64,000 bases of DNA from Chondrosia reniformis (taxonomy: Eukaryota; Porifera; Demospongiae; Chondrillida; Chondrillidae). Below the pieces are notes generated by a model. It saw only the letters and a program-made list of their open reading frames with translations. It had not been told where the DNA came from and made no database searches. This document shows, piece by piece, positions 1,112 to 57,118 of this stretch (position 1 is the stretch's first letter; every line of letters begins with the position of its first letter). The DNA is taken from NCBI GenBank assembly GCA_947172415.1, contig OX359190.1, positions 10,168,001 through 10,232,000 of the forward strand. Direction: 5' to 3'. The position numbers and the translations under genes were made by a program.

Positions 1112-3875
1112 TTAGTAGATTCCAGTGGCTCGGTGGGGGAAGTGGGGGACCAGGTGGGGCATCAGGCTGGGTGCCTGAAATTGACTGAGGGTGGGGGACT
1201 CGGGCTGGAAGCAATTCAATGGCTGTGTGGACTGGGGTAGACTGGTGATGATTGGCTGCTGCCCTAAAGTGGTAAAGTGGAACAGGACACACATTATACG
1301 AGTTCCCTTTGAACATTTACGATGCACATAAACTTGTTACAGTGGAGAATAGGGAAAAAGTAATATTTTATCTTCACATATAGCTCTGTGCTGTAATTAA
1401 CATGCTACAAAACGTAACACTGATAGAAGTGTATGCTATAATTAACATCATACCATGAAGTAATTATGTAATCAGATAACTTCAAACAAATTTGGATAGC
1501 TACCTCACCTTGGAGACTAGTGTGGGACATTCCCATATTCCAGGAGGCGGTTGTGGGGTAGGGCTGGTATCGGACAGAGGAGGCTGTGCTTGGTTGGTAC
1601 ACGCTCTGCATCTGAGGGCCGTATCCCTGGAATATCTGTGTGTTGTATGCATGGTGGGTGGAGACTGGGTTTACTGGTTTGGGTTCCATTCCACTTGGGG
1701 TATTTGGGAACGTGAACATACTAGCCGTTTGGAAATCGGAATGAGTACTTGAAGGCCCTTCTCCGAAAGGAGATGTTGGTCCATCCAATTTAGAAGTTGC
1801 TGTATCCACACTAGGAATCACAGAATCTGAGCTGTTCAAGACTGGTTCATTTGGAGGGAGTTCGTCCTTCACAATGTGATGAGGAGACTCACTGGGTAAG
1901 TGGTCTGCTAAGGAGCTCCCTTCATCTGAGGGGGTTAACAGGTCAGTCTGAGATGGAAGAGGAGAGTCTTCTCTCAATCTTCTGTCTGATACCTTTGTCT
2001 CTTTGACACTCTGACTATCATCTGTGTCAATAAAACTACAAAAGTGAGAAGACAAATGTATATATACTTTGTGTATGCACAACCAGTACATCAGATGTGG
2101 TAAAATTTATTGGATTACACAAATTGAGTCTGTTATATGGTTGAGTGATAGAGCTTGTCTAAGCTAACAGAGAATTTCCTTTGATCTCTCACTCTCCATA
2201 GCTGCAATACTAACAATCCTACCATTCAACTGTTACAACATGCAAGCTGTTTGGTATTTCAAACATGCTCTGAATGCACACATGTATGTAGCTGGCATAC
2301 CCGTCTTTGGCGGCTTCTGCTGCCCTTTCTCGCTGTCTCCTGTTCTTGAACCAGTTGCTGACCTGAAGAAAAACAATTAGTAATTATAAGAGAATTGATC
2401 CCTAGAATATCACCTCTCCAATCTCATTGTGTATAGAGAGTATATGGTAGTGCTCTCTAAGTAGGGCTGTATAATATACACTTTATTACTACTACACCGT
2501 TAGTGCTATATACCTTTACTCTATACTTAACTCGTACACTCTTATAAAATGACTTTCCCATCCAATTCACACACAAACACACTCTATTATATGCAACAGA
2601 TAGATTATACCTAGCGCTCATCACTGGTCACCTCATACTTTTACATTTGCTTGAATAAAGTGTGGAGGAATGTTACAGTTATCGGAAAACAATATCCATA
2701 ATTGTATATTCATGAACCTATAATCAGCTATACACAAATCAATGATGACTCCATCCCTACCAACTCGTATCTATATACAGGATCCATCTCTCTAGTGTAT
2801 ACATTACAGACATAGCCTGTTATATCATCATTTCCTTATATAGTGATGCTAACTGAGTCATGAGAGTCTGCATATAGTGAGTTTAGTAGTTCAACATCAT
2901 ACCAACCAAAAATATTTAAGCCACCACAAAGACAAAAATGTTTTCCAAATTCAAAAAAATATTTTTTAAATTGCAAGTTATTGGGACCCCAAATCAGTAG
3001 GATTCTGAACTATTGTTAAAATTTATAAACTGATGAAAATCTAATGTATTAACGAATAACAACTGCATAGCAAGTTATAATGGATAACAAATTGCTATTA
3101 ATTAAAAGCAGGCACAACTTGGAAAAATTAACAGAAAATGAAAAGCATTAAAACCTGTTTTGCATTAAAAGTACATTCATGTGAAAATATTAAATTATAC
3201 ATGCAAGCCAATTTTCCATAGCATTCTGCTAACCTGGGTTGTGGTTAATCCAGTTAATTCTGCCAGTTCCCTCTTCTCAGTGGGTGAAGGGTATGGATTC
3301 TTCTCGTACCAATCTCTCAGAACCTTTCTGCTCTTCTCCTTAAAACAATAGCTAGTTTCTTCTCCATCCCAGATGGTTCGCGGTAAAGGGTACTTTCGCC
3401 TAATACGATATTTTCCTACTGCTCCTAGAGGTTTTCTTCTTACTCTTTCCGCTTCAATATAATGAGCTTGTAACCATAGCTGTTGCATCTTCGGGTGGTT
3501 ACCGGGAGAAAAATTATTGCTTTCAATTATTTCGTAAAGTTCTCTAAAGTTACCTTGATGAAACGAAACAACAGCTTTAGCTTTTAATACACTTTCATTC
3601 TTTTGAATGTCCGGGCAGGGCGGTAGCGACCAAAGAAATCGCGCTAACCGATCGATGTTGCCACTCTGCTGAAGCACCTCACACACACACGCTACCTGCT
3701 CCTGCGTAAAACCAAATTTCATTCCGTTTACTGGTGGAATCGGAAAGCTACCGGCACTCGGAGCTACAGGGAAAGCCGCGGCAGTTGCAGTAGGAAGATC
3801 CCCCAGAGCAGGCAACGTCTGTCCGCTTGCCACAGTTGTCTGAAAATTTATTCTATCTGGAATCATCATCTGCAT
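1112..3875 (-). CDS. SIX1/2: SIX1/2 (sine oculis class) homeobox transcription factor
   Basis: Four exons: 3234-3875, 2301-2362, 1509-2035 and 1112-1263, all in phase, 460 residues. Residues ~50-165 form the SIX domain ([20 protein letters not shown] onward). The homeodomain follows and begins [11 protein letters not shown], the signature of the SIX1/2 subclass rather than SIX3/6 or SIX4/5. An intron splits it after TTTQ, and the recognition helix continues as [20 protein letters not shown]. The C-terminal half is Ser/Pro/Thr-rich, as expected of a transactivation tail. The ATG at 3875 is the first in the open frame, although a second Met lies close by. SIX proteins act in the nucleus with EYA cofactors (family knowledge). 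A long gene-poor region lies upstream. Confidence 0.93.
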
Positions 3876-5799
3876 GTTTCTTCGTCAGCGACAGTATATA
3901 CGAAGGTATATCAACTGAACCAAATCGGAACGATAGCGAGTAATTTGGTAACAGTCCGTACTTGCAAATTCAATAAAATACAATGGATAGCCTTCAACTG
4001 GAAACGCTTCAGTGATTCCGTAAGATAAGCCGCCAATGATATTATAGTCTCTTTCGTGCTAGGATCGTTCTGTACAATTGGTTAGTTTCTCCCTCCTCAA
4101 AGTGCACTTGACGCCACTCGACAGCTCAAAGGCTTCTGTTTAGCAAAAGTGCCAACGACTTTGGTCAGTGAAATGTATCCGTGGAAGTTCTGCCATCGCA
4201 CTAATCGATCCTACTCTTTTATATTGGAACACCTCGACTGGGTAATACGACACCCCGTATTATTGATATGCAATGTGTCGCAGTATAAACTTGTAAGTCA
4301 TCGATAGGGAGGATCGATTGCACGCGGTTAGACCGCCAAGTGATTAACAGGTCATAACCCGTGAAAGCACTCGCAGCTCCTGACGAAATAGTCTATACTG
4401 CTCCAGCAGAATATGTCACATGCGCAGTATGTACACAAATAGCTGTTCAATGCAACCAAGTGCACTGTAGTGGCACTGCTTGTTATGTATTTTGCTCACA
4501 ACATGTATTTTGATTATAACTGGTTTATGTACGCCTCATTGAGCTAATCCAAATTTAAGTGTTGCCTTGTACCTGCTTCCGTGTGAGAGCTCCTTAGCTG
4601 CTTGAACACACCTGCTACATCAGAATTACAACTAATTAGAGCAATATTTGTGGTCATGTAAATCCAAATTAGAAGAAATTTACTTTTCATCTGATCTTCA
4701 CTGATAACCTGGTCAACCTTTAATAGTAGGAGCATAAAGTGTGTCTGTGGTCACCTGGCACATAGCATGCTCTAGTATACATTGGCCACCTTAAGCTTAT
4801 GCATGAATCCTGAAATCAGCACCACCTCAGACTTCAACATCAAAGGTTGTCTAGACACATGAATATCATTAAATATTTAATAATATTCATAGAATTGGGT
4901 TCATCAAGATGCTTTCAAGATATACATAGGTTAAATAACAGCTTTTAGTAGCTACCCACAAATTAGGTGACAGATGTTAAGTATACTAATGTAATTCATA
5001 GGAAGGGGAAATGTATTGTGAATAATGTTGAAACCATTTCTTTCAATTACCAAGTAATATAGTGAGCAACTGCACTTTACAATCAGTGAGCCAATAGTTG
5101 CAATATGAACTGTTATTTAAAAGGTCAAAGGAAGAATCTTACAATCTGAAGGAGTTGACATGGAATTAGCAAGGGTAGTAAGGAAGGTTGCTCTGTCATA
5201 CTTGGTGAGAACTTGAGAGTATTCTCAGCCGTACACTGCATTCTTATAGTTTCCTTGATCTGTGAGGGGGCATCTGTGATATTTATCAGAGAATGTTGGT
5301 TCAGAGATTTTGACGTAAATACCAAACCATGATACACACATTCTGAATGCAATATATATCTATATCTTTGTATTAAGAGGAGCACAAGTGTATGTTTCAC
5401 TTTAAAAGGAATCCTCAATTAGTGGTGAGTTTGTTCAATTACTGAATAATAACAGCTCATTACAAAGAACAATGAGGACTGGCTGGTATACAATGAATTC
5501 AAGACCAGTATTGTGTTCCACGGTCCATCACCTTGAGCAGGCCCTGTGCCTAGCAAAGATGAATATTTGATAATAGTCTAGACATGACTGAAAGATTCAC
5601 TTTTCGATAGGAATATTGTTCGAGCTAATTATATAGGTGTTGAACACTTGTGGCTTCAATCTCTACAAAAACTCATTTCATAATTGATTCTACTTGGCAC
5701 TGAGTATATTTACTTTAAAAGAGAGTTGCTATTTGTGCATATAATTGGTGTCAGGAGAAACTTGTCACATACACATTTCAAGAATTTAGTTGATTGAAA

Positions 5800-39307: not shown

Positions 39308-41900
39308 TCAGGGTGTGTCCTTGGTTGGTGAAAAGGCAGATGATAATCTTGGCTGTGTCCTCTCAATTTCAGCTATTTCTGGTGCCTGATCCTCCACAAC
39401 CAGTGACTGTGACTTGGTCATACGACTGGATCTGGCAGATGCCTGTGGCAGGAGTATATACCATTGAGAGGCAGTACCAATGAACAAATCTGCTCACTTA
39501 CATTCTCGATATGTATAGATGGATCGAGAAGGGCCTTGTACACTTTTATTGGCAAAGGTTGGGCACGACCCTGAGTTCCAACCAATTGCTTTCTCATACC
39601 TGCAGTGGAAAGACAGCACTAACACCCTCTGTATAAGAGACAGCAGCCTTGTCCTACCTGGCCGCATCTTTCCAGCATTTCCTCTGTGTTTCCTCTTCTT
39701 GAGTGAGTCAAACCCTTCTGGGTATGGCTCTGCCACTCTGACTGCATGCGCTGGGGAGATACCTGCTGGAACTGAAGGGGACTTGGCAAGGACCTTTTTA
39801 TGCACTACACGGAGAGGGGATGGCTACATAATCTGAAGGATGTAGGAATGGAGTGATTAGAGTGAGTATGGGAGTGGCAGTGATACAAGTAAGTATGGGA
39901 GTGGCAGTGATACAAGTAAGTATGGGAGTGGCAGTGATACAAGTAAGTATGGGAGTGGCAGTGATACAAGTAAGTATGGGAGTGGCAGTGATACAAGTAA
40001 GTATTGGAGTGGCTACCACTTACAAGGGTGTCCATCAACTTCTTCCAATTGTTTTGGTTCTTGAAAGGCAGGTTGTTCAAAGGTTTCATAATCACTTGGC
40101 TGCACTGCAGATCCCTTCTGATGTTTGGTGATCATTTTAGTGAAGTGCCGCAAACTCTTTTGGTTACTCAAGTTCTGCTTGCCTCTAACAATCTCATTGG
40201 TCACATGACGTCCCACTTCCTGCGCTGCCTTTATCCTACTCTCCAGCTCCAGACGACACTCCTGAAGGGTCATTTCAGCAACTGGAGTGTTGTTGATCTC
40301 TGTGGCCTGTGTGTACATGCTGCCAGCACTTAGAGATTGATTGAGTGGAGTATGCTGATTGTGTATTTTGTGTATCGTCTGCTCCACTGCCATGTCTCTC
40401 TCAGCCTTTGGCAGCCACACCTGATGGGACATTCCATCTTGCAAATACAAGCTTTTATACTTACTTCTGCCACGCCTGCAGGCCACAGTGCGGGGAGGTC
40501 CCTGGTTAACCCTACCCCCCTCCCCTTTGCCATGTTGACTAGGCCTACCTCCAACCCTTGGTGGGCGGGGACTGATGGCAGGATGATCTGAGACAGGTCT
40601 CAATGTAGGCTCTTTGTCAGTAGAGGAATGCCTCATGGGGACTTCCCTATCATTAGTGGAAAGTGCCACTGGGCCTTGGTGTTCGTTTGCTATGCTAACT
40701 TTTCTTTTATTCTTCTCTGGAATGATTGAGGTGGGTGTGGCTGGAATAGGTGAGGTGGGCGTGGTTGGGATGGGTGAGGTGGGCGTGGTTGGGATGGGTG
40801 AGGTGGGCGTGGTTGGGATGGGTGAGGTGGGCGTGGTTGGAATGGCCATGTTTGGGGTGGGCGTGGATATAGCCCGTATGTCTGTAGACTGTTGTTCAAA
40901 ATTAGTGTAATCCACTTCCTCTATGCCGTAGAGAGGTATGGTGGGGTGGAGGTTTCGTCCTTCAGAGGATTCCATTATGAGGGGCAGCTGCTGAGGAGCA
41001 TCTTGCTCTTCATCACTGAACACTCCAAATGACTCATCTAGATATTCTAGGTAAGGTGTGGCAAGAGGGAGGGAATGGGAGGGTTGCTATGAATTATCAG
41101 AGTGATATGCAAACCACAAGTAATCATTCACAAACATCAATAAGGTAAAAAGGGAGAAAGAAAGAGGCAATCAAACCCAGGACAGCTGGTTATGACCACC
41201 AGTGCTCGGCCACTGAGCTACAATTGCCACAATAGTACTTCATTCATGTTTCCCCTCTTATACTAACTACAAATAAGTAATTTAGTCAGTATTCACCCTA
41301 ATTAGTGGTGACTTCATTTATCAGAAGAAGCTGATAACCAGAGAACTGAGATCAGAAAGAGAATGCATACTTTACCATTACCGAGCAATTGCTCATCCTC
41401 TCCTCCGCTATCCAACTCATCTGCAGTGGACAGGCCATCTTCAGTGACAGTCAAATCATCTTCAGAAGCAACAGGAGTCAGGTTTTGAGCGTGGGTGTAC
41501 ATCTTTGGCAAGGTGTCTTTGATTAAACTGGGTCTACATCACAAACAGGACTTGGGTCTCATGACATTTACAGCATATTCACAAGTGATTACCTCGCTTC
41601 CCTGCTTCTGGATGCCAGTGATCCCATTTCAGTTTCATTAAGTTTGGTTTGGGAATGTCTTGACAGCATTCTCTCCCTCTCCTCCCTTGTCTGACACCTG
41701 ACCCTATCAAAAGAGATGGCAGAGGAAGTTGGAGACATATCAGGTGCACTTGTAGAACCCACTTTGCTTGTGCTTGCAGCTGCTTCACTAGTAGGAACAG
41801 ATTGGTGTGTCTGAGGGCCATTGCAACGACAGAGGCACACAGAAAGAACAGGGTCATGCACAACAAAATCTGAAGAGGAAACAATGCATGTCACATGCAT
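39308..41900 (-). CDS. Unrecognised protein with IPTTPTSP repeats
   Basis: Exons in phase: 41593-41900, 41376-41533, 40024-41046, 39658-39804, 39502-39599 and 39308-39442, 622 residues if it starts at the ATG at 41900. Visible parts: a Ser/Thr-rich N-terminal region, an acidic segment (ADELDSGGEDEQLLGNG), a coding 24-bp repeat giving about five copies of IPTTPTSP (40731-40850), a basic stretch (ACRRGRSKYKSLYLQDG), and a likely helical part (MTLQECRLELESRIKAAQEV). I do not recognise a domain. The first exon overlaps the last exon of the ABCG fusion gene in another frame, so the start is uncertain; it could instead be a tail of that gene. An intron between 41046 and 41376 holds a SINE. Confidence 0.6.
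39845..40016. repeat. 27-bp repeat (AAGTATGGGAGTGGCAGTGA)
   Basis: Six copies in an intron of the Pro/Thr-repeat gene, starting about ten bases past the donor. On the transcript strand each copy ends in ACTTACTTG. Confidence 0.93.
40729..40852 (-). repeat. 24-bp coding repeat encoding IPTTPTSP
   Basis: About five copies in frame within the 40024-41046 exon. Copies are nearly identical in DNA, so the array is young or homogenised. Confidence 0.92.
41150..41278 (-). mobile_element. tRNA-derived SINE, copy 2
   Basis: Reverse-strand copy of the element at 20218. On the minus strand it reads box A TAGCTCAGTGGCCGAGC (41210-41220 covers its core), hairpin CTGGTGGTCATAACCAG, and box B GGGTTTGATTGCC (41166-41178), close to the pol III consensus GGTTCGANTCC. 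A T-rich pyrimidine tail follows. Inserted in an intron. Confidence 0.75.
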
Positions 41901-44900
41901 GTCACATGACTAGGGTGGGAAGATGACATACTAGAATATTAAGGTAAGGATTTATTTGGTCAAATTGAAATTGTCTCAGAATATAATCACCAGATCCAAT
42001 GTAACATTCCAGTTCTGATTTTGTACAATTATTGTTAAAGTTTGACAACAGAATGTAAGCAGTAGATGAGAAGCCATAAAAGTTTGGATTGATATAAAAC
42101 AGCCAGCAATACCTAATAAGGAAGAAATATATGATAAATTTAGGATACCCATGCATAACTTTGGAAACTGACCAAGGAGGCATTTGGCCAATAGGAACAA
42201 AAAATCCACTGGCAAATCCAGCCACTGCCGAAATTACAGGAGACAGTCTGATAGCGTAAGTGGGGAAACCAGTTATGACAAAGAGCAGCAAAGCTATCCA
42301 TGTCTGATTGAGTGCAAGGTTCACAAGAACTAGCTGCAAGAACACCAGCAGGTTATACTGGTCCTCCCGCATGGCCTGGGAAGGAACAGGACAGCCATAT
42401 TAGTACACATACGTAGACTCTGTATAGAGGATTACATATAAAACTTACTAGTAGGTATAAAATGGCAGCACAGAGAATAACTGGTATGAAGGCTAGAGTA
42501 ACAAAACGAGTAAAACCCTGTACAATGAGATCATAAGCCCAGCCCACTCCATCCATATGCTCTATCTTGTACAGTGCTAGGGTCTTGTCATAGTATAAGT
42601 GCATTATTGGAAACATGAAGAGGGCACTAGCAACTGAGTAGACACAGAAACCAGACACCACTAGGAATGCACTCTCTGTGTTCAGGTAAACTGTACCTAT
42701 AGCAAAGAGAGCAGGGTCACATGATCACCATGTGATCATCATGTGATCATTAGTCTATTTACCAAGGAGTGTTCCATAGATGATAAAGATGGCAGGAAGA
42801 TAGGCAAGTTGTGGGAAGGAAGCTCTCTTTGCTGCCCGAGCCTCAAAAGCAGACAACCTGGAGATTACATTGGCCCCCCCACGACCAAGCGGGCTGAAAG
42901 TACAACATATAGAGAGAGGAAGACCTCAACAGCTGGTAATATACAGCAGTTAACTCGGACCAACCTTCCTCCATCGGTTGACTCCTTTCGACTTATGGAT
43001 ATGTTGGCATCCTTGGTGGCAGCGTTAATTGCTCTTCTAACCCACTTGGGCTCTCTGGACTGATTGTAGTGCTCAATCAGAATGTTGCGAAATTTGTGGT
43101 TTCCCAACATATCCACAATAATGTCTAAAAAAACAAGTTAACAGCCCAGGGGCCTCTAAATGTCTCTCTCCAAGTGGTAGTCTCATCCCCATCCCCAACT
43201 TCCACAAGAATGGCTGACGCCTTGGAAGGTTGAGTCTGGGGACTATTTGCATATTCCTTGGCGATGATTGTGCAATATCACATGATGGGCATATACATAC
43301 GATACATGTGACTTGCATGTATCTGCAATCTGATTAGAGTCTGCGGATTGCCAGACTCTGCCAAGAAAAATGCACATAGTTCCCAGACCCATCTTCCACA
43401 CCTTAGAAAATGGCGGCCGGAAGTTGGGGATGGGTAGGAGACTATCCAAGTGGATCAACTAATAGCTCAGGGCCACTACTAACCAGCAGGGTTTTGATCC
43501 TCCAATCCTGGAATGACTTGATTCTTTGATGCAAACTTTCGCTTCAAAGCCATTGTGCACACTTCATAGGCTTGGGAAGGCTGCCCAAAGTAGGCCACCT
43601 ATAGTAAAACACTTTCTCTAAAATACTAGAATATACTAGAGTATTCAGAGTTTTACTGACCTGTCCCTCGCATAGAAATACAATCTTATGAAACATGTGA
43701 AATATCTCTAGTCTGGGCTGGTGAATTGTAAGAATAATAGTTCGCTTTGACTTGCTGAGTTGGTTCAACATTCCAAGGAGATCAAACGAGGCGTTGGCAT
43801 CCAGACCCGAGGTTGGCTCATCCAGTACCAGCACCTGTTAAGCAGACTGTCAGTGTCAAGACTGACCAGAACACACGTGTCTTACTTGTGGCTCCCTGAG
43901 GAGCTGAATGGCAATTGAGAGCTTCCTCTTTTGCCCCCCACTCAAGCCAGGTCCAAAACTGTTGCCCACTTTGACGTCTGCTTTCTCGTGGAGCTGGACT
44001 ACATGAAGTATCTTTTCAACTCTGTCAAATATTTGAGTCAAACTGAGTGACTTGGGCAGTCTCAGTTGAGCAGCTAAAGTCAAGTTCTCTCGAACAGTTA
44101 GTTCTTCATAAAACGGAAAGGTCAACTGCATCAGGTAACCTAGCAACAGAAAACAATAGCATACAATATACTGTACTGTTAAAGTTATACTATACTACAT
44201 ATATACTTAGGTATACATACAATTACCACTTGTATACCTGTCACTTTATTGTAGTCCTTGCGGATGTAGTCGAGGTCATATCCATTGATGAGCACCTCTC
44301 CCTGGATACATGGCACAAGTGTCACATGACCACATGTACAAGTACACACACAAACACACTTCAATCTGTCCAGTTGTGCGTCGTCCTGTCAGTATATCCA
44401 AGAGGGTAGTCTTGCCACAGCCTGAGAGTGCAGAAAAACTTTGACCTTTAACCTCTACACCTGCTACCCACTGAGGTCTACCTACCAGATGGTCCCATGA
44501 TGGCCACCAACTCCCCGGGGTTGAAATACAAGGAGACATTTTTTAGGATGGTCTATTCACAGAACAGAAACAAATACACAATAGTTATAAGATTGTCTTG
44601 AAAAAGGTGCTTACTTGCTTCTTCTTGGAGAGGGTAGCTTCCACTCTTGACACAGTAGATGATGACCTTATTTGGGCAACTGAGGCACCGACATAATTAC
44701 GAGCCAGTTTTATGGAAGTCTAACAATTTGAATAAATGTCTTGAAATATATATTAAAACAGCAGCCCTGGGCTCTTACTTGGGTTTGGGACCTAGTTAAA
44801 CCTCTTGCTGGACGTCCTGTACCTAGTCCATTTGTAAGAGAAATTTTAGAAGTTGAATTCAGAGTGGAATGATCAGATGCTTCGATTGACTTCTCCAAAT

Positions 44901-47900
44901 TGTCATTGTAACTGGCTCTATACTCCTTCCCGGGATACGTGTAGTAATCCCGCACTTGCTGAGGTTTACGCACAGAGTCTAGCAGGAGTAAAGTAACATG
45001 GTCACATGACTGTCACAGAGTCTAGCAGGAGTAAAGTAACACGGTCACATGACTGTCACAGAGTAAGTAACACGGTCACATGACTGTCACAGAGTAAGTA
45101 ACACGGTCACGTGACTGTCACAGAGTAAGTAACACGGTCACGTGACTGTCACAGAGTAAGTAACACGGTCACGTGACTGTCACAGAGTAAGTAACACGGT
45201 CACATGACTGTCACAGAGTAAGTAACACGGTCACGTGACTGTCACAGAGTAAGTAACACGGTCACATGACTGTCACACAATGGCATGTGATTACTAACTT
45301 CCATCCGGCGGTTTCCTAACTTCCACTTTGGGACCCAGTTTCGCTGGGATAGAAGCAATTTCACCATCTCTAAACGTACTGTGAATGAAGTTTTCAAACA
45401 AAGTTTCATCTCCATATTCTTCCAGCTGTCCGTGATTCAAGTCTGGATCAACTTCAGCTAAAACTAAGAGACGCGTCTCCTCGGCAATCTAAGGGACACT
45501 GACTACATCAACACCGACTTGACCCACCAGCCCCTCCCACTATACATACCTTGTGTTTGCTCCTCTGAAATGACACTGAATAGCTGAGGTTCTTGCACGC
45601 AATTGAGTACCCGCCCACAGACGGAAACTGGGTAACGAAATGGAAAGATTAAAGTAGTGTTTTATATTTGAGGTACTACATGTGGTAGGTCTCACAGATA
45701 AGGGTCCATATTCCTGTTCTGAGAGCAGCCTCTCGTAAGGATGATGTGAGTCCATGAATACTTGCTGGCGGTGCTTCAGTAGACAGTGGTGAATCTTCAA
45801 GCAGACAAATACTGCAATAGATAGAAGCAGTACAACCAACACAGCGGTGGCCACTACAGCACGCTCCCAGTCCTTCCATGAAAACACAGAAGTAATGTTA
45901 TAATTGAGCTTCTCTGGACAAACATCTCTGGCACAGTGTGGTTCGGTGCATGTCTGACGGATGAGCAGCTGCTGGAAGGAACTGTTGGTACCAACTGGTG
46001 GGAATGTTCTCCTCCAATAAAGGATGGTTTCCTCGATTGACAGAGAATCCGTATTATTCCAGAGTGAATTTGGGTAGACAGGAATGTTAACATTTTTCCA
46101 AAATGGTTTTTCTTCATTATTCAAACTGAATAAAAGGGTATGTCAAATTACATCACACACAAGTACCACTCCTCACACAGGTACCACTCCTCACACAGGG
46201 GTACCACTCCTCACACAAGTACCACTCCTCACACACAGGTACCACTCCTCACACAGGTACCACTCCTCACACACAGGTACCACTTCTCACACACAGGTAC
46301 CACTCCTCACACACAGGTACCACTCCTCACACACAGGTACCACTCCTCACACACAGGTACCACTCCTCACACAGGTACCACTCCTCACACACAGGTACCA
46401 CTCCTCACACACAGGTACCACTCCTCACACACAGGTACCACTCCTCACACAGGTACCACTCCTCACACACAGGTACCACTCCTCACACAGGTACCACTCC
46501 TCACACAGGTACCACTCCTCACACACAGGTACCACTCCTCACACAGGTACCACTCCTCACACACAGGTACCACTCCTCACACAGGTACCACTCCTCACAC
46601 AGGTACCACTCCTCACACAGGTACCACTCCTCACACAGGTACCACTCCTCACACAGGTACCACTCCTCACACAGGTACCACTCCTCACACACAGGCAACC
46701 AGTATGTAAACAATAAACAATTTTGTTAACAGTACAAAGTTGATTCATGAGCTTTATTCATGAATATAATTAGAACCGTCTGTTATGCTAATTAAATGCC
46801 ACTCATTCCTGTATCTGTACACACAACCCCTCAAAGGTGAGGTCATACGTGGGCAGCTGACCTCCAGTGAACTTACATAAAGTTCTGTGACAAGCTACTC
46901 TTTGCAAACAGTTTGCTATCAAGAGCAGATTTATTGGAGCCACTGCTGTCAAATGGAGAAAAGTAGATGTGCTGGAAACAGGAAGTGATGAAATAACTAA
47001 ATTGTTGAGTGCTTCTAGCAATGTTGTTGATGGTGGAGTTCATGGTACCTCCGTATTCGCTAACCAGTTGCAGGTAGCTCACATCAATACCAATATCTAC
47101 ACCAGAGCACAAAGGAGATGAAAGGAGTATCACACTAAAGCAATTAGACAACTTACCCAATATTTCCCCATTTCCACTGGGGTCCCAGTCAGAACAGAGA
47201 TCAAGACTGGGTGACTGGTCACTAGATCCACGGTTCACAAGATTGATGAGAAAAGAGTCATACCTGAGAGTGACTCCAAGCACATACACGTCATACAGGG
47301 ACAGGACCATGAGCGTGGGGATGTCCCTAGGAAAGTGGTCACTATTGAGGACACAGTGAGCAAGCAGACAACAGGGAACATCCTTGTTATTCTTTCGTTC
47401 ACACAGCTCCAGGTGCTGTATAGCTCTAAACAGTTCATTGCTGTCTATGGGCTGTGAGGCAGTTGCGTTGGAGGAGTCTGGTCTGGTTGCCTCTTGCAGG
47501 AGAAGCTGACTAAATGTTTCATGAAAATCCACAAACCATGAAGAATCTAAAATTACAGACATTTGAAGTGGATTAGAGTTGTTGGATTTCCTCTTTTCTT
47601 GTGTCGTGACATTTTGCAACCAGCCAGCATGGTTCATTACTCCTATCCCTCCAGCACTGGACCCAATGAAGATGATTTCCTCTGCCTCTGCCAGGCCATG
47701 GTCAGTGAGGAGGTCCTGGATGACTCCTCGGAAGATGGTTGAACCTCTAAAGGCAAACTGAATGTTGATGTTATCAGTTGTGTTATACTTGAAAGAGGAG
47801 GGAAAATCCCTTGAATCATCGCCAAGCCACAGATCTGAGCTGCAATAAGGCAACAACACATGATTAAAGTCAGAAAATTGAGGGTTTTCCTCTTCTGATG

Positions 47901-48494
47901 GAGACATAAAATCTTGGCCAGTAATGGAAAAGGTTTCAGTCTCATTAGGCCTCAAAGATGTCATTAGAGGAGAAATAATGTCTTTAGCACAAGCATGACT
48001 GGTGGTGTTGTAGGTCCCATCAGAGAGTGGTCCACACTTGCTCTCCCAAATAGCCGAAATGTCAATCTTGTCAAGAAGATCTCCTCCTCTGAGCTCCTCC
48101 TTTATGAACCTGAAGGAGCACACTTGTATAACACCACATATGTCTTCAAAGAGTGGCTGTATATATCATGTTAACATAATACATTGCATGCATCATTAAG
48201 CACTACCATATGTCAACATAATGGATGGTGGTTGCTATGGAGATAGATGAGGTAGAATGGTGGAATTAACCTTTTGTTGCAAGTGTTAGCAGAAACACAA
48301 AAGCCTCCACTTTCCAAGTAAATGATCCATTTTGTCTGATTTTGATAGTGACGTAGAAAGTAACCACTTTTTGTTAAATCATTACAAATTGCTCTGGTGT
48401 CTGAAATGTCCATCCATTTCATCTTAGGGTCAGCCGCCATTGTCATGGCGATAGTAAGGTGAATTAAAATTAAATAAGCATTGGTTGAAAACAT
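41579..48494 (-). CDS. NOTUM/pectin-acetylesterase hydrolase fused to ABCG half-transporter
   Basis: Nineteen exons, every junction in phase: 48271-48494, 47157-48109, 46877-47096, 45696-46125, 45550-45627, 45299-45488, 44779-44978, 44615-44719, 44486-44552, 44360-44421, 44238-44301, 43886-44139, 43661-43834, 43484-43598, 42965-43124, 42763-42893, 42449-42696, 41932-42375 and 41579-41869; 1,469 residues. Signal peptide (YLILIHLTIAMTMA), then a PAE/NOTUM domain: WIIYLESGGFC, LLPYCSSDLW, nucleophile in GSSAGG (~S226), Asp in LSLYDVY (~D348), His in SCFQHIYF (~H435), Cys-rich end. A transmembrane helix near residue 555 leads to the NBD: Walker A GPSGCGKTT, signature LSGGQKRK, Walker B VLVLDEPTSGLD, then ABCG membrane helices. 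The final ~75 residues are doubtful because another frame is also coding there. Confidence 0.85.
45000..45275. repeat. ~31-bp repeat (GTAACACGGTCACATGACTG)
   Basis: About eight copies in the fusion-gene intron between the exons at 44779-44978 and 45299-45488. ATG/GTG variants alternate within CAC(A/G)TGAC. Confidence 0.94.
46150..46696. repeat. 18/20-bp repeat (GGTACCACTCCTCACACA)
   Basis: About twenty-eight copies, alternating with and without an extra CA, in the intron that splits the esterase domain before its C-terminal part. Long ORFs on both strands are artefacts. Confidence 0.97.
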
Positions 48495-48563: not shown

Positions 48564-49663
48564 GATACAGATTGATATCATCAAGATAAGACTTGTGGTT
48601 GACTTGTATGGCATTTATCTACACACTATAAGACATCTGTGTTTAAGTCCAATTTCATAAGAGGTTACTTCAGATATATAGTTGAGGAAAGAAATATATC
48701 CTTATCACTAGGATATCCTGAGTTTGAAATAATGATCTCTATTTCAGGACAAACTACAGGACAATATCTCTTAGTAAACAAGAGATATTGTGGATGGAAC
48801 TGCTAGCTAAGGGTAGAAGTGTGCTCGCATTAGGTAACACAGTCTGCACGGACATCTGATTGCTACTTCTAAAATGGTAGTGGGAATTAGTGGGAAGTGT
48901 AACAGAATACTACATGCATCAACTGCTACAAACTAGTGCAGCCATTGAAGGGTTATCTAAACCATCTGAAGGAGGTAGACCTCAAGGTAAGGGCAGGTAT
49001 TGACCATTTCCTAGCTACAATTGATCAACTGCTCTATCTAAATGTGTTGTTATGACTGCTACAAGCATAGCTGTATGACCATACCAATCAAGAATGTGTC
49101 TGAGACCCACAGTTTTCTTTGACAATTTGCTTTCTAACATATAGGCTACTTCACTGGGTGGGCATTTAAACATTATCTACCTACCAACTAGTCTCCCTCC
49201 AGCCCCTGCTAGCCTCCCCTGGCCCAGCTCGTCTTCCCCTGGCCCAGCTCGTCTTCCCCTGGGCCCAAGCTAACCTCCCCTGGGCCCAAGCTAACCTCCC
49301 CTGGGCCCAAGCTAGCCTCCCGTGGGCCCAAGCTAGCCTCCCCTGGGCCCAAGCTAACCTCCCCTGGGCCCAAGCTAGCCTCCCCTGGGCCCAAGCTAAC
49401 CTCCCCTGGGCCCAAGCTAACCTCCCCTGAGCCCAAGCTAACCTCCCCTGGGCCCAAGCTAACCTCCCCTGGGCCCAAGCTAACCTCCCCTGGGCCCAAG
49501 CTAACCTCCCCTGGGCCCAAGCTAGCCTCCCGTGGGCCCAAGCTAGCCTCCCCTGGGCCCAAGCTAACCTCCCCTGAGCCCAAGCTAACCTCCCCTGGGC
49601 CCACCTAGCTCCACTCGGCCCTGGCTAGCTCCCTCACTGCTCCATTACAGCCCCAGGTAGTCC
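48495..49663. other. Intergenic region upstream of the fusion gene
   Basis: Holds a (GA)n tract at about 48532-48560 and the 21-bp array listed separately. Presumed promoter of the minus-strand fusion gene; no other gene seen. Confidence 0.65.
49195..49612. repeat. 21-bp GC-rich minisatellite (GGGCCCAAGCTAACCTCCCC)
   Basis: About nineteen copies, each with the palindrome GGGCCC. GCTAACC/GCTAGCC and CCCCT/CCCGT variants are shuffled across the array. Confidence 0.96.
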
Positions 49664-54744: not shown

Positions 54745-57118
54745 ATGGCTGCCAGTACCAACGAACTGAGAGTAAGCAAGAATGGGGAAAGAAATAACTG
54801 TTACCTCTTGTCTGTAGTTGTATTCACTGTAAACAATTTCCTCACTCACTCCAGATGCTTAAAGGGATTGATATTCATGGAGGCCAACTCCAAGCAGCCG
54901 ATGGAACCTCTCCTAAGAATGGAGAAGACTTTATTTGTCTCTTCTGTCACCATCTCCTCAGAGATCCAGTTCAGTTGTCTTGTGGAAACCGGTTCTGTAA
55001 GATGTGTGCAGAAGAAATGAGACAAAAGTGAGGACTAGCTGAATATAAATACAGTATTGACCCCACCCCTCATTCCAAGCCACACCCTCTCACACTGGCC
55101 CCTCCCCCTCACTCCCCGGCCACACCCTCTCACACTGCCCCCTCCCCCTCACTCCCAGCCACACCCTCTCACACTGGCCCCTCCCCCTCACTCCCAGCCA
55201 CACCCTCTCACACTGGCCCCTCCCCCTCACTCCCAGCCACATGCTCCTATATACTTCCTCATAGAAGCCTTCCAAACTGTCCTTCCTGTGATGAAGCCAT
55301 CGACTTCTCCTCAGTGTATCCTGATGTTTACATTAACAAGCAAATGAAAAAGCTTCTAATCAAGTGTACCTGCGGAGAGACTGTGTCTCTGATGGAGTAT
55401 GAGGGACATTGGGAGAGGGTGTGTCCAGAGGCGTGTCTACCCTGTAAGTATGGGTGTGGTGAAGTAATTCAAAGAGGTGCGGCCGACTCCCACTTGGAGA
55501 GCTGTAAACTGAGACCAAAAATATGCCAATTTTGTAATTTTGAATTGGGAATGGGAACATCTCTTCAAGTAAGTAATGCAGTTAATGTATTCTAGTGTAA
55601 ATTGATAATATTTCTAACACTTTATAGGAACATTTAATTGCAGAATGTAAAGCCTTTCAAACTGAACAGCATTGTGCAATATGTCAAGTTACACTCAAGA
55701 GTGGCTTAGAGGTGAATACATATACAAGTACTCTACAGAGAAAAACATATTCTTTTACTGTGTGTGTCCATGTATATAAATATAGGCTGCGTCTCATGAG
55801 TTAACAATTTGTTTTGAGAGGAAAAGAAAATGTCCCTTTCCCATCAATGCTGATTGCTTGAAGGAAGAAATGAATTGTACTGTAATGAAGAAGCATCTAT
55901 CTCCAGATCACATTCCAGTTTTGGCCGGTAGAGTAGAGGCTATGGAAGGTTTAGTGAAACAAAACAAAACGCTCACTGAAAAGGTCTCACTCATGGAAAC
56001 TGAAGTGACACAATGTAAATCCATGATATCAAATCTAAAGGTGAATATAATGTGAACAAAGGCTATATGTCAAGATATAGCACCTCTTTATGTTGCAATA
56101 CGTTCACTCTATGTTGCAATACCTATTGTAGACCATGGTAAATGAGTTAACTCGTAACTTGACAGAACATCTGCCGACAGGAATGGATTTGGTGGAGTCG
56201 GATGTTGCTAAAGTGAAGGGACCCAACCAAGATGAGGGAATGGACAGTGGAATGTATTCTCACAATAGCAGACATGGGGAGGACCCTGCCTTCTCAGATG
56301 GAGAGTTTTCAGTCACACCCCCTGCCATAGAGACTCCACCCCCTCGTAGACGCTCTTCTGATCATAGGTTGCATATGCCAAATCAACAACATATTGAAAA
56401 AATGGCCGTGGAGAAAGTGGGTGTGGCCTCTGTTGAGCTCGAGTCTCGTATGTCCAAAGTGGAATGTACAGTGTCAACTCTCAACCAGGCTGTCCAGCGC
56501 TCCACTCAGGATAGTACCAACTTTAGTGGACAAGTGGTAAAGTTGCAACAACACGTGACTGAACTGGACAACAGAGCGGTACAGCACTCCAACATCTTGG
56601 AGGAGGTGTGTCTGAGACAGGAGCTCCTGGAAGTCAAGACCACCAGTGGCTGCTTTGTGTGGAAGATCAACGATGTGTCCAGGAGGTATCGTGATGCTTT
56701 GGAGGGCCGCACGCTCAGTCTCTACAGTCCGCCATTTTACACTAGTCCCCATGGTTACCGGATGTGTCTTAGAGCATACCTGTATGGGGATGGTGTGGGC
56801 AAGGGGTCCTTTGTGAGTGTATTTTTTGTAATCATGCGTTCGGAACATGACGACATCTTGGCATGGCCCTTCAAGCAGAAGGTGAGCATATCTCTGATCA
56901 ACCAGGACACCCCATCAGAGAACTACACTCACATCACTGAGACCTTTCTCCCAGATGTCAAGAGCAACTCCTTTGCCAAGCCTCGCTCTGAGATGAATGT
57001 GGCTAGCGGCTTTCCCAAGTTTGTGAAAGGAAGTGTTCTTAAGGATCCAAAATTTGTACGAAACGATGTAATGTACATCCGGTGCAAGGTAGATCGCACC
57101 GGACTCACCACTGAATGA
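54745..57118 (+). CDS. TRAF: TRAF2/3-like adaptor (RING, TRAF zinc fingers, coiled coil, MATH)
   Basis: Six exons in phase: 54745-54771, 54855-55027, 55268-55568, 55628-55711, 55786-56040 and 56132-57118, 608 residues. RING near residues 30-75 (FICLFCHHLLRDPVQLSCGN then RFCKMC and CPSC). TRAF-type zinc fingers follow (CKYGCGEVIQRGAADSHLES; CQFCNFEL; KCPFPINADC). Next come a coiled coil, a Pro/Ser-rich insert (VTPPAIETPPPRRRSSD), a second coiled coil, and the C-terminal TRAF/MATH domain (CFVWKINDVSRRY to DVMYIRCKVDRTGL). Cytoplasmic adaptor for TNF-receptor or innate-immune receptors. The RING zinc-ligand His (CGHRFC in relatives) is Asn here (CGNRFC), so ubiquitin-ligase activity is uncertain. 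The first intron after the RING holds a 39-bp repeat. Confidence 0.92.
55083..55243. repeat. ~39-bp repeat (CACTGGCCCCTCCCCCTCAC)
   Basis: About four copies in the TRAF intron that interrupts the RING domain. Confidence 0.93.

Follow-up and report, generated by a model that had tools for sequence, protein, structure and literature searches.

NOTUM, a secreted switch of Wnt signaling, is a palmitoleoyl-protein carboxylesterase, and both NOTUM and the pectin acetylesterases (PAE) act extracellularly, on proteins or polysaccharides. ABCG half transporters work as dimers, and the substrates of many of these pumps are uncertain. Their N-terminus is usually cytosolic, without a helix ahead of the nucleotide-binding domain (NBD), although this is not universal: in the ABCG half transporters Adp1 of yeast and ABCG24/28 of plants, an N-terminal domain on the outside and a helix precede the NBD. 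To our knowledge, none of these N-terminal domains is known as an esterase.

In the 64,000-nt stretch of Chondrosia reniformis DNA analysed here (hereafter the window), the original prediction that one gene fuses a PAE/NOTUM esterase to an ABCG half transporter is confirmed at the level of gene models, with a single predicted gene running from leader peptide to tail. Our hand-built model, drawn from sequence alone, occupies 40013–48494 on the minus strand (OX359190.1, about 10,208,013–10,216,494) and comprises 23 exons from ATG to stop, encoding 1,822 aa. All 22 introns are GT-AG and in phase, no internal stop is present, and 17 of the 22 are 51–98 bases long. On that strand, exon 1 (48271–48494) carries a likely signal peptide, MFSTNAYLILIHLTIAMTMA (called by eye), and the start of the esterase domain, followed in exon 2 (47157–48109) by the PAE/NOTUM core recognized by Pfam, with GSSAGG at 47664–47647 and the Asp motif LSLYDVY at 47304–47284. 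The His motif SCFQH (46983–46969) lies in exon 3 (46877–47096). Most of the 751-base intron 3 (46126–46876) is filled by a minisatellite with periods of 18 and 38 bases (46153–46695). Exon 4 (45696–46125) encodes a NOTUM-like C-terminal cysteine segment and a lone transmembrane helix (45857–45801) followed by basic residues, and exon 5 (45550–45627), separated from it by intron 45695–45628, encodes the first strand of the ABCG NBD. Exons 6–8 (44615–45488) hold an NBD insert ahead of the Walker A strand that differs in length among the three paralogues; in the window gene it takes up 495 exon bases (165 codons), and in the paralogue C4 it is much shorter. The body of the NBD follows in exons 9–14 (43484–44552), with Walker A (GPSGCGKTT), Q-loop, LSGGQ, Walker B, and H-loop all intact, then an ABCG-type membrane domain in exons 16–20 (41763–42893) and a long C-terminal tail in exons 21–23 (40013–41703). 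Within the tail, positions 40016–41086 have no Pfam match, and a coding array with a 24-base period (40727–40845) specifies PTTPTSPI repeats.

Both junctions on which the prediction had leaned hold in this model, i.e. 46877/46125 within the esterase (phase 2) and 45696/45627 between helix and NBD (phase 0). Its count of nineteen exons and its 3′ end at 41579 were wrong. Exon 20 stops at 41763, where both paralogues have a same-phase intron no more than 2 alignment columns away, and because it ends there the protein runs into another frame through exons 21–23, with a stop codon ending at 40013. The splice choice near 42150 was also replaced, and the end of exon 18 is set at 42173 because the eight extra residues are absent from both paralogues.

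Other features of the window include a second intronic minisatellite of the fusion gene (45029–45277, period 31 bases) and one upstream of it (49255–49603, period 21 bases). A SIX-type homeobox gene lies at 3198–3875 on the minus strand (SIX1_SD, 7.5e-49, with a partial homeodomain), and a plus-strand frame at 56135–57115 encodes a TRAF/meprin MATH domain (2.4e-42). Rfam has no match within the 64,000 nt.

We searched the genome (117,379,552 bases in 15 contigs, with the window on C2) using the PF03283 profile and found 23 matches at E ≤ 0.001. The accessible part of the genome note for this species lists 14 chromosomes plus a mitochondrion, with chromosome 2 at 10.29 Mb (PMC12181767). The matches group into the window gene, single loci on C4, C8, and C7, a main locus on C9 with one small fragment elsewhere, and a three-gene cluster on C5. 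In three of these, the window gene, C4, and C8, the PAE match is followed on its own strand by ABCG parts. In C4, the esterase, the helix, and Walker A share one open frame of 571 codons (2415–4127 of the C4 stretch L009, of which 2465–4112 is modelled as exon), and an open run of this length has a probability of about 6e-15 per given frame at that base composition. The C4 protein, taken as far as its final helix, matches PAE (2.5e-49), ABC_tran (4.8e-26), and ABC2_membrane (27.0 bits), and the C8 protein likewise has a leader peptide followed by PAE (1.3e-32), ABC_tran (9.5e-27), and ABC2_membrane (6.1e-9, 36.2 bits). The content of exon 4 recurs in both, split by one further intron in C8.

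Because two paralogues repeat the domain order, and in one of them a single frame stays open from the esterase through the helix to Walker A, a chance arrangement is excluded, and the in-phase exons together with these paralogues bear out a single gene joining esterase and ABCG. It is thus very improbable that a gene for a secreted esterase and an adjacent ABCG transporter gene were misjoined; the repeat-filled 751-base intron inside the esterase, and a model built from genomic DNA only, would leave room for this, but it is already contradicted by the single C4 exon and by the helix–NBD intron (45695–45628), whose position and phase are common to the window gene and C8. As judged from these models, the domain architecture is real, and three diverged genes of a single sponge retain it.

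The remaining PAE genes, on C7, C9, and C5, show no ABC match within the stretches of about 10 kb around them. When the window and C4 proteins were compared with loci L011–L015 by tblastn (E ≤ 0.001), the esterase part alone was matched, and L012 had no match at all. Two of these stand-alone genes, at C9:4648673-4649670 (L011) and C7:8184903-8186117 (L013), are 88% identical over the fragments compared, and a further small PAE fragment lies at C9:4626473. On C5, 8205784–8212021 (L015) holds a cluster of what appear to be three PAE genes in tandem, which carry a GGGWC motif and have no ABC match nearby.

The three fused genes are deeply diverged. Their esterase domains share about 27–32% identity, and the transporter halves of the window gene and C4 agree at 37% of 594 positions. 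When eight PAE rows from this genome are placed in one tree, a branch with 97/96 support separates the three fused domains from the other five; the rows for C5, C7, and C9 were assembled from exon fragments joined in series, with stops written as X, C5b covers 29% of columns, and the fusC2 row is a long branch. In a small NBD tree, the fused copies group weakly (68/80). In each of three alignment modes, 8 of the window gene's 22 introns coincide with a C8 intron, and 2 of 22 with a C4 intron, both in position and in phase; one of the eight (aa 1293) rests on the end of exon 18 as corrected with a paralogue in view, and intron 3 (aa 466), which has phase 2 like a C8 intron 9 columns off, is left out of the count. 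Searched with the window NBD, the genome gave at least 35 matches, i.e. at least 7 in the window gene, at least 3 in each of C4 and C8, and at least 22 elsewhere. Among the matches listed, identity is 36, 53, and 74% for the C4 pieces and 38, 56, and 63% for those of C8, and 20 of the 22 matches elsewhere fall at 30–45%, with two short ones at 51 and 56%. We infer that the simplest history is a single fusion event, with later duplications and a long period of divergence.

The ectodomain belongs with the PAE/NOTUM family. Pfam assigns PAE at 2.1e-31 in a 1,486-aa version of the window protein that predates the exon 18 correction and is without exon 23, and the PF03283 scores of the window, C8, and C4 domains (109.8, 113.8, and 168.7 bits) far exceed the cut-off of 26.6. 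Against solved structures, all eight sequences matched by the window esterase are NOTUM (best 3.5e-23), and a profile of the three paralogous esterases again returned eight of eight (best 1.4e-34). NCBIfam has no family for 46877–48108 of the window, and an AlphaFold model of the C4 frame from eight aligned rows is of low confidence (mean pLDDT 43). The catalytic motifs named in the original prediction are present in the window gene, and their three catalytic residues are invariant across the paralogues, with Ser in G-[SL]-SAGG, Asp in S-x-YD, and His in SC-x-QH; Asp and His are assigned by motif, and the NOTUM alignments extend over no more than the Ser region and C-terminal segment. C4 reads GLSAGG where GSSAGG stands elsewhere.

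One site departs from NOTUM in all three copies. Solved NOTUM chains read EGGWY or EGGWH (the 4uyu-type chains are presumably human NOTUM and 4uzk fly NOTUM), and the fused domains read ESGGF (window), EGGGG (C4), and ESGGG (C8), so that Gly replaces the Trp in each. This Trp, near the oxyanion site, helps form the acyl pocket of NOTUM. Of the proposed link to NOTUM and Wnt, the assignment to a PAE/NOTUM-family esterase stands and the NOTUM/Wnt role is weakened: because the EGGW Trp is absent from the fused copies, we doubt a role on Wnt palmitoleate, and the acyl group handled is probably not that of Wnt. The same replacement, along with GLSAGG in C4, would also fit an ectodomain that is no longer an enzyme and instead serves as a binding, gating, or assembly domain of the ABCG dimer. 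We regard this as unlikely, given that all copies agree in Ser, Asp, and His and in two Gly of a region that we take to be the oxyanion hole.

The transporter half is that of an ABCG protein. In the same 1,486-aa version of the window protein, Pfam finds ABC_tran at 1.2e-31 and ABC2_membrane at 5.6e-6 (26.5 bits, marginally below the 26.9 cut-off, which both C8 and C4 exceed), in the order NBD then membrane domain, as in ABCG transporters. Alignment extends along ABCG1 chain positions 95–655. The search of solved structures matched 576 sequences; among the best 60 of these, fungal pleiotropic drug transporters lead, followed by ABCG8, ABCG1, and others, and proteins of the ABCB and ABCA families score lower. 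NBD pieces match TIGR00955 and many other ABC models of NCBIfam, with scores far below the cut-offs among the matches listed. Walker A, LSGGQ, Walker B, and H-loop are kept in all three paralogues. The NBD insert and the linkers vary in length among the copies.

The usual cytosolic N-terminus of ABCG proteins is absent from all three models, where a hydrophobic leader (in C8 and C4 also judged by eye), the ectodomain, and a helix precede the NBD. The helix anticipated ahead of the NBD is thus supported, and so is an esterase on the outer face, which by its place before the helix would lie outside or in a lumen. A hydropathy scan at a threshold of 1.5 finds one strong helix between esterase and NBD (residues 556–574, mean 3.07) and, further along the protein, the ABCG helices; one stretch within the esterase also exceeds 1.5, at 1.68 in the window protein and about 1.6 in C8 and C4. 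Since the order is leader, ectodomain, one helix, and NBD, the esterase is predicted to be outside or lumenal and the NBD cytosolic. The three ectodomains contain 12, 9, and 8 N-glycosylation sequons against shuffle means of 6.3, 5.3, and 4.4, counts reached in 17, 54, and 45 of 1000 shuffles, but these do not fix the topology, because the NBD part of the window protein likewise exceeds its shuffles (7 against a mean of 3.25; 25 of 1000). Both halves would lie on their correct sides and, because the catalytic and NBD motifs are kept in all three copies, both look able to work.

Leader and part order suit a lumen as well as the surface, and the long cytosolic tails could carry sorting signals. 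The protein might then reside in an internal compartment of a feeding sponge cell, e.g. an endosome or digestive vacuole, where a lumenal esterase would trim esters of food or symbionts while the pump moves the lipid products. We consider such a location quite unlikely; the sequence does not separate surface from lumen.

Our preferred reading is an ABCG exporter with a tethered ecto-esterase that works on the exported ester, to which we assign a probability of about 0.4. A NOTUM/PAE-family serine esterase outside (or lumenal), one helix, a cytosolic ABCG NBD, and the exporter membrane domain would form one protein, working most likely as a dimer. The pump would move an amphipathic acylated or acetylated compound, or a lipid, to the outer leaflet, and the tether would hold the esterase near the pump's outer opening, where it could cut the exported ester as it exits. 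Export would thereby become one-way, or a modified product would be released. The handover of an ester from the pump to its own esterase, as suggested in the original prediction, would fit all the observations made here.

It is also quite possible that the ABCG half merely anchors the esterase, which would act independently on surface substrates (an acylated ligand, or esters of mucus, matrix, or prey polysaccharides) with the pump unrelated to it. The intact triad motifs in three copies agree with this, and linkers and an NBD insert of varied length give no sign of tight mechanical coupling. A cheaper anchor would suffice, however, and an ABCG half with an intact NBD is retained in all three members found in this genome. 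Since both active sites are kept through deep divergence, we infer joint use of the two halves, and cutting of the exported ester is most likely ahead of an independent surface esterase. A hitherto undescribed family of fused transporters and enzymes, in which ABCG exporters and their own ecto-esterases form an export-and-deacylate machine, with the ester cut on leaving the pump, is a more tentative proposal and somewhat doubtful.

Scans of GTDB (prokaryote) and viral contigs with the three PAE domains gave 77 and 58 pattern-matched stretches, none of them confirmed by tblastn; covering prokaryotes and viruses, these have no bearing on the spread of the fusion among eukaryotes. The PAE/NOTUM–ABCG combination was not found in the accessible parts of the literature on PAE/NOTUM with ABC transporters, on sponges, and on domain combinations, a scope outside which eukaryotic protein databases lie. 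The accessible literature on ABCG proteins with N-terminal outside parts is likewise without this architecture, and in the main text of a paper on the evolution of ABC structures the words esterase, PAE, and Amphimedon never occur (PMC4649718). The architecture is possibly undescribed so far, and automatic annotations of it may well exist.

The fusion suggests that NOTUM-type esterases are also built into membrane machines. For pumps of uncertain cargo, an enzyme carried at the exit narrows the guess, i.e. the cargo or a membrane neighbour should be an ester, and three copies in one sponge provide ready test material.

Among known systems, we liken the fused proteins to Adp1-type fungal ABCG proteins and plant ABCG24/28 for their N-terminal outside domain and helix before the NBD, and as such the topology, with an outside domain and a helix ahead of the NBD, may not be new. 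Adp1 is described as a possible glutathione exporter in the accessible part of one source (PMC6071951). The fused proteins resemble the NOTUM/PF03283 family in their PAE domain, Ser-Asp-His motifs, and cysteines, including those of a C-terminal segment whose alignment to NOTUM is weak, but they are tied to a transporter rather than secreted and carry Gly for the EGGW Trp. Like ABCG1, ABCG2, ABCG5/8, and the fungal pleiotropic drug transporters, they place an NBD with intact motifs before the membrane domain; unlike ABCG half transporters, they add a leader, an enzyme ectodomain, a helix, an NBD insert, and a long C-terminal tail.
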